A program made the translations under genes and the position numbers. This document shows positions 28,685-30,025 of a DNA stretch of 64,000 nucleotides, one piece after another (the first letter of the stretch is position 1; each line of letters begins with the position of its first letter). Origin of the DNA: an uncultured Sphingorhabdus sp. (GTDB lineage Bacteria > Pseudomonadota > Alphaproteobacteria > Sphingomonadales > Sphingomonadaceae); contig CANMXN010000001.1 in NCBI GenBank assembly GCA_947501885.1, positions 682,001-746,000 on the forward strand, in the 5' to 3' direction. The notes beneath the pieces are model-generated. The model did not search any database. It had not been told where the DNA came from and saw only the letters and a program-made list of their open reading frames with translations.

Positions 28685-30025
28685 TCACCCTATATTAAAA
28701 CCGCGAATGATGCGCACATCTCCGTGCGAAATCTCTACCAAAGCAATTGGGATTTCATTTTCCCATGCCAAGTGGAGACCATCCCCTGCGACCCCAGATA
28801 AGACACGGCCCTGTTGGATCGCTTTTGCCTGTTCTGAGGAGAGGTAAAGTGCCGGGGTGTCGTCCAGCGCTGCCTCCATTGGCAAAATTATGTCTTTCAA
28901 TGGCGCGCCTTTACCGATTTCATCCAATTTGTCCAGCGAAATCGTATGCTTTAAGGAAAATGGCCCTGCCTTTATACGCCTTAGCATTACGACATGACCA
29001 ACACTGCCAAGCACATACGCAATATCACGCGCCAAAGAACGTATGTAAGTCCCCTTCGAAACATGAGCGCACAGCGTAATTTGCGAGATTTGCTCAGCAT
29101 CCGATCCTTCGACAGGCTCAGGACGAACGGTAGGTTTATGCAGCTCATGCTCTTTAACATCGTCATGCTGAACTTGGTTCAGTATAACGCTATCGTCATT
29201 CTGTTCTAACCGCTTCTGCATCTCGCCCAGACCATCATTAACACGCACTTCGTCATGCTGAACTTGGTTTAGTATCTTATTGTCATGTGATCCTGAAATA
29301 AATTCAGGATGACGGTGGGTAGCTTCAGGATGACGGTGGGTAGCTTCAGGATGACGGGTGGTAGCTTCAGGATGACGGTGGGTAGCTTCAGGATGACGGG
29401 TGGTAGCTTCAAGATTATTGTCGGCGGCTTCAGGATTACGTGCGGTAACTACACTATGGCGGGTGTTAGTTTTAAGATGATGGATAGTGGCGTCAGGATG
29501 ATCAAGGCTAACTCCTTGGTCATTGAAGCTAATATTATCATGATGTGAGGCAGATTGAGAATAAAATAACTGAACAATATTCAAATCAAAAATCGTAACA
29601 TTGCGCCTCTTCATTTCAACATCAACGCCTGCTCGCGCCAGGTCATAGGCGCGCTGCCCATTAATTTTAAGCGCACTATATTTTGGCGGTATCTGTTCAA
29701 TGTCACCAATAAACTCAGCCAAGGCGTCTTTAATTTGTTCCAATGTTGGCCTCACATCAGAGGTCTCGCTGACATCGCCCTCGCTATCCAATGTTTCGGT
29801 TTCTACGCCAAATTGGATTGTAAACTCATAAATCTTGCTCGCATCGAGCATTCGCCCACACAATTTTGTTGCCTCACCCAAAGCAATAGGAAGGACACCA
29901 CTCGCCAGTGGATCAAGTGTACCGCCATGACCAACTTTGAGTTTATCTTTGCCTTTGCCCAATAAACCCGCCTCGCGCAAATTACGTTTAACAGCGCCTA
30001 CAGCTTGCGTGGAGCCAAGCCCCAA
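28685..30025 (-). CDS. truB: tRNA pseudouridine(55) synthase TruB with a large internal insertion; the ORF track starts it at an internal TTG
   Basis: [60 protein letters not shown]; about 160 extra residues between IVQLF and the KGTYIR motif. Confidence 0.9.
29090..29570. repeat. REP-like palindromes plus 21-bp tandem array inside truB
   Basis: ccttcgacaggctcaggacgaacg; two copies of gtcatgctgaacttggtt(c/t)agtat; tcctgaa-ataaa-ttcagga hairpin; repeated cttcaggatgacgg(t)gggtag units. Confidence 0.9.

Follow-up and report, generated by a model that had tools for sequence, protein, structure and literature searches.

The closest described relatives of the repeats analysed here are the CGTC-tagged REPs of Di Nocera et al. 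(2013; PMC3733652), for which intragenic copies were already listed, tRNA synthetase genes included, and which S. maltophilia, E. litoralis and S. alaskensis were recorded to carry in their genes for tRNA pseudouridine synthase B. The same study reported a shared REP site for recB alone, genes of the same category otherwise carrying REPs at different sites, equated RPE-4 and RPE-6 with CGTC REPs, and noted RPE-1 in the truB gene of R. conorii (PMC3733652). Rickettsia palindromic elements (RPE), which we liken by description, are likewise palindromic repeats lying in frame within protein genes, but RPE-1 is a longer element, and half-site tandem amplification into a peptide repeat was not mentioned for RPEs in the open-access literature searched. 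For the REPINs linked to RAYTs (Bertels and Rainey, 2011; PMC3116915), inverted REP pairs were shown to be the dispersal unit, and tandem REP arrays occur there too; these elements, however, are of the GTAG type, and their tandem units of ~70-110 bp contain whole REPs.

The window, a stretch of 64,000 nucleotides from an uncultured Sphingorhabdus sp., contains a stop-free open reading frame that NCBIfam names TruB (TIGR00431, 217 bits) and in which the TruB N domain, the catalytic GGTLDP motif and the KGTYIRSL motif are all present (Table 1). The neighbours, named from their translations, are rpsO-pnp on one side and rbfA-infB on the other; a GNAT acetyltransferase ORF (30057-30590) lies between rbfA and truB here and is absent from that place in the relatives G022 and G035. 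The original prediction, that about 160 extra codons, in frame and stop-free, interrupt this gene where E. coli TruB has a short hairpin loop, agreed well with our comparisons: against the close, insert-free relative G012 the excess is ~154 codons; G022 and G035 have the insert with fewer heptads; and a sequence alignment with E. coli TruB (1k8w) places the insert at the short RHEGNEL turn. Since E. coli can do without TruB, the label of an essential-family gene, also given at the outset, is too strong.

Table 1. Coordinates of truB, its inserted loop and the repeat units of the insert, as positions in the window
Feature	Position	Strand	Basis or remark
truB (tRNA pseudouridine-55 synthase)	28685..30061	minus	TIGR00431, Pfam TruB_N + TruB_C_2
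In-frame insert in the beta-hairpin loop of TruB	29090..29575	minus	177 aa vs 23 aa in G012
RPEPVEG-type palindrome, second repeat family	29106..29130	.	exact match
Single CGTC-tagged REP	29161..29185	+	reads ILNQVQHD on the minus strand
Degenerate REP half-site CGTCATTCTG	29194..29203	+	repeat finding
Head-to-head CGTC REP dimer (REPIN-like)	29251..29314	.	sequence matches
Tandem array of half-site TTCAGGATGACG + 9-bp locus-specific spacer	29303..29501	.	TRF, repeat finding

When re-checked, the sequences and coordinates first described for the insert proved accurate, with CCTTCGACAGGCTCAGGACGAAC at 29106-29128, GTCATGCTGAACTTGGTT(C/T)AGTAT at 29162-29185 and 29252-29275, and TCCTGAAATAAATTCAGGATGACG at 29291-29314. 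CGTC/GACG flanks the stems at 29161, 29251 and 29314, and the REP architecture is CGTC-ATCCTGAA-TTTAT-TTCAGGAT, with an 8-bp stem and a 5-nt loop. HPEFISGSH, originally taken as a unit of its own, is one arm of a head-to-head REP dimer, the adjacent ILNQVQHD being the other; only one of the dimer's six frames, the frame in use, is without a stop. Of the proposal that a REP half-site had landed in a tolerated loop, the tolerated loop stood, but not the half-site alone, since a complete head-to-head dimer is included. The tandem array adjoins the tag of the dimer's perfect arm on its outer side, with TTCAGGATGAC at 29303, 29324, 29345, 29366 and 29387, a spacing of exactly 21 bp; it gives about nine heptads on translation, and TRF returned a period of 21 with 6.6 copies (85%) over 29303-29440 and a 63-bp super-period up to 29501. 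In dinucleotide-shuffled sequence, the long units were matched 0 times and the half-site 0.02 times. A second 21-bp tandem repeat, TCGACATTTTGTCGCGCAGCA, is present in 2.5 copies at 60884-60935 and has a palindrome-like TCGACATTTTGTCG core. In Rfam there was no match above gathering; below threshold, a weak S15-leader match (RF00114, E 0.003) was located at 28614-28734, upstream of rpsO and overlapping the 3' end of truB; CsrB gave a likewise weak, sub-threshold hit on the truB array.

We found that these units are dispersed palindromes, as had been predicted. The organism's own genome (2.65 Mb, 21 contigs) contains the single REP at 41 places with at most 2 mismatches, and the RPEPVEG-type palindrome and the right arm of the dimer at 16 and 48 places, respectively, with at most 3 mismatches; a reversed control of the palindrome units found 0 places in this genome. 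Perfect-arm REPs numbered 7 to 154 per genome in eight relatives of the same genus, the truB copy of G015 being one of its 154, and at most of the loci read the arms were paired head-to-head, a few tens of nt apart. The truB arm ends in GGATCAC versus ...GCATCCA in other members, the tail of the class being mostly CCA. The CGTC tag, the 8-bp stem starting with AT, the 5-nt loop and the head-to-head dimers match the REPs of PMC3733652, those in truB included, and REPs in truB were therefore already known; alphaproteobacterial hosts and the lack of an associated transposase are further points of likeness. A RAYT-associated REPIN was considered and rejected, as the tag is CGTC instead of GTAG and a search with PF01797 detected no Y1 (RAYT-type) transposase in the genome (G000), the same search giving matches in control genomes; the ~20-bp units with half a REP also differ from those of the RAYT REPINs. 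In-frame pairs of the RPEPVEG-type palindrome were also observed in valS, ileS, pheT, sufC and glyS (twice) of the same genome (L063, L065, L066, L074 and L077; gene identities confirmed by NCBIfam), a striking bias toward aminoacyl-tRNA synthetases.

Sequence comparisons showed the TruB loop to be a recurrent landing site for unrelated repeat families across Sphingomonadaceae. Our sample, skewed toward relatives of the query, comprised 80 named loci, the relatives searched and the best 120 protein homologues, 189 distinct TruBs altogether; 129 of the loops carried repeat peptides of nine families, 45 were short and 15 were of other kinds. For example, the repeat peptides include RHPELVSGS..LKQVQDD, HAGLDPAS..TPDQVRGD, HPGEGRDP..LRRGD, ERSRE..STSLDTNG, PELVEG..STSSA, SPLEGE..PLPQGER and LPFRGGVGGG..PSPEGEG. 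Families were assigned from simple peptide patterns, so that borderline loops (e.g., P0005) may be misfiled; multiple copies in the own genome were confirmed for families A, E and B (29-72 copies) and H (4-181 copies), the others being checked for palindromic form alone. The DNA of loops of at least 36 aa had a mean fold z of -4.8, with 78% below -2, and that of loops of at most 27 aa a mean of -0.3, with none below -2. Unrelated repeat families occupy the loops of TruBs that share 97-99% identity over the rest of the protein, and the TruB gene tree needs 75 label changes; given the weak resolution of the tree and probable recombination, these changes are an indication rather than a count of insertions. 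Among the Parasphingorhabdus-type TruBs sampled, almost every one has some insert, and a 23-aa loop is found in the close relatives G012 and P0008. L111 preserves the remnant of an element after an in-frame deletion of 36 nt that spans the hairpin, showing a route by which an element may be lost. In a class-wide control of 146 genomes, the loop was almost uniformly short outside Sphingomonadaceae; the draw included one further genome of the window's family, G081, whose loop again had a palindromic element. G131 and G145, candidate insert carriers outside the family, were set aside, their extra residues apparently containing no palindromic repeat peptides of this kind.

We consider it likely that CGTC REPs and a second palindrome entered a length-tolerant surface loop of TruB in frame, and that half-site slippage, filtered for frame, followed. 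The REPs (a head-to-head dimer and a single copy) and the second palindrome would have inserted into the surface beta-hairpin loop, the survivors being those with a stop-free frame and a total length that is a multiple of three; insertion would recur there because few places in a conserved, expressed protein let an insert survive. Short direct repeats beside a hairpin would then be provided by the tag-side half-site, AGGATGACG, together with a partial copy close by, and slipped-strand replication may multiply the unit of spacer plus half-site; two adjacent half-sites next to the hairpin would suffice for such growth, and slippage between them would explain why the array ends in a half-site. 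In truB, multiples of 3 bp alone would survive, so that the array reads as heptapeptides, and between genes the same slippage would give units of ~18-24 bp, while elements would be lost through deletion across the hairpin. The in-frame insertion and the 21-bp amplification support the earlier proposal that repeats became protein; we infer slippage as the amplifier, and tolerance rather than targeting of the loop. A point against this reading is that truB here is without a standard in-frame start codon, the inserted peptide being a predicted one.

Half-sites were counted with complete REPs masked and over 130 nt outside the tag. Of 30 complete GG-type (perfect-arm) REPs in the Sphingorhabdus genome, 17 had half-sites on the outer side of the tag, 39 in total; shuffled sequence gave 1.2, and the counts were 0 on the opposite side and 2 in a stretch 400 nt away. 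GC-type arms had 8 half-sites, at 6 of 44 (Fisher p = 1e-4 versus GG-type), some of which belong to arrays facing them. At 30 loci in eight genomes of relatives there were 22 half-sites, versus 2.0 in shuffles. The original prediction of a half-site amplified as a coding 7-aa array was right as to the amplification; the array is no accident specific to truB, tag-side arrays beside CGTC REPs being a general feature of these genomes. Over the genomes read, 23 arrays of at least two units were collected, mostly located between genes, with units mostly of 18-21 bp, and frequently ending right after the tag; their spacers are locus-specific, similar within one array and unlike between loci, and are G-rich and C-poor (0.10 versus 0.25 in the flanks). 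Intergenic half-site arrays whose G-rich, C-poor spacers lie on the outward strand were seen at L057, L070, L075, L076, L077, L081, L184 and L190, and L056 has a (GGATGAC)n heptamer run in addition. The truB heptads number 0 in P0079, 1 in P0038 and P0053, 2 in P0023, P0011 and P0120, about six in G022, where they have diverged, and about nine here; the array predates the split between G022 and this genome. A point against slippage is that decay of half-sites showed no significant increase with distance from the REP (rho 0.18, p 0.24).

The arrays might instead come from an enzyme that mobilises the elements, through insertions or excisions that repeatedly abort at the CGTC tag and with no slippage. 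Such an enzyme would account for the position of most arrays, on the tag side of a single arm type, and for the several that stop precisely where the tag stops, with unique sequence beyond (L178, L180, L080 and L082), but a half-site array end is also expected from slippage, and spacers alike within an array and different between loci are what local duplication predicts. As no transposase is known for CGTC REPs (PMC3733652) and the PF01797 search of the own genome was negative, we regard this origin as unlikely. Plain slippage, on the other hand, fails to explain the G-rich, C-poor spacers or where the second half-site came from.

The near-universal inserts in the sampled Parasphingorhabdus-type TruBs could reflect targeting or selection rather than tolerance. 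The loop might be a maintained exchange site, at which one palindromic repeat is continually swapped for another since a hairpin in the truB portion of the rbfA-truB-rpsO-pnp transcript is useful (e.g., in RNase/PNPase control) and the peptide is irrelevant, or an unknown CGTC-REP mobilising activity might both target the site and make the arrays; we think either quite improbable. A functional, selected insert, acting as a charged disordered peptide that aids TruB as an RNA chaperone or through hairpins in the rbfA-truB-rpsO-pnp transcript that control the processing or stability of the rpsO-pnp mRNA, would agree with the great frequency of inserts at this site in one group, with closely related proteins differing in their palindromes instead of lacking them, and with the keeping of hairpin-forming DNA in long loops. 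It is nevertheless very unlikely, given that the repeat families are unrelated in peptide sequence, that G012 and P0008 manage with the 23-aa loop, that a hairpin-deleted remnant (L111) exists, and that the dN/dS of the insert is ~0.7-0.9. Specifically, Nei-Gojobori estimates among this genome, G022 and G035 were 0.68-0.92 for the insert, 0.04-0.07 for the N part and 0.18-0.21 for the C part: the TruB domains are under purifying selection and the insert is nearly unconstrained. In the AlphaFold model, residues 171-320 had a pLDDT of ~30-56 and almost no secondary structure, between strands at 153-167 and 325-334; with a shallow alignment of 34 and an overall pTM of 0.44, this local contrast alone was used. 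The model points to the exposed disordered loop that had been predicted, probably within an active enzyme, and the low pLDDT and the dN/dS of the insert rule out a conserved folded domain. Over 28700-29575, dS between this genome and G022 was 0.14 in the insert, 0.36 in the C part and 0.96 in the N part, and the lower values in the insert and C part suggest between-species recombination across part of truB.

The start of truB reads ATG-AAA-(C/T)AT-CAT-GGT-TGG in G022 and G035 and GTT-AAA-CAT-CAT-GGT-TGG here (30045-30061); the open frame runs on to a stop just upstream, with no in-frame ATG, GTG or TTG ahead of the conserved WIILDKP, and the next in-frame standard start codon is TTG at 30025. 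That truB is a decaying pseudogene here, in which repeats pile up freely, would suit this replacement of the relatives' ATG by GTT beside the inserted GNAT gene, but it is highly improbable in view of the dN/dS of 0.04-0.21 in the TruB domains, with comparisons to this genome included, the intact catalytic motifs, the ~460 codons without a stop, the failure of a search for a second truB copy to find one, and the same insert in relatives with a normal ATG start. Tandem repeats are prone to misassembly, but an assembly or sequencing artefact is hardly credible here and is ruled out by the architecture shared with G022 and G035, which were assembled separately and whose units have diverged independently.

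PMC3733652 has neither a single TruB loop in which numerous unrelated families have settled nor half-site tandem arrays with locus-specific spacers. In the open-access PMC literature, we did not find a description of one enzyme loop in which many unrelated families have landed time after time, or of tag-side half-site satellites, read in truB as a heptapeptide repeat. The TruB loop is a natural, conserved landing pad that allows close relatives to be compared for how REPs of the CGTC class insert, amplify, replace one another and disappear. The locus also presents the steps by which noncoding repeat DNA becomes a repetitive peptide within a housekeeping enzyme, and the genomes compared show CGTC REPs giving rise, again and again, to small one-sided satellites.
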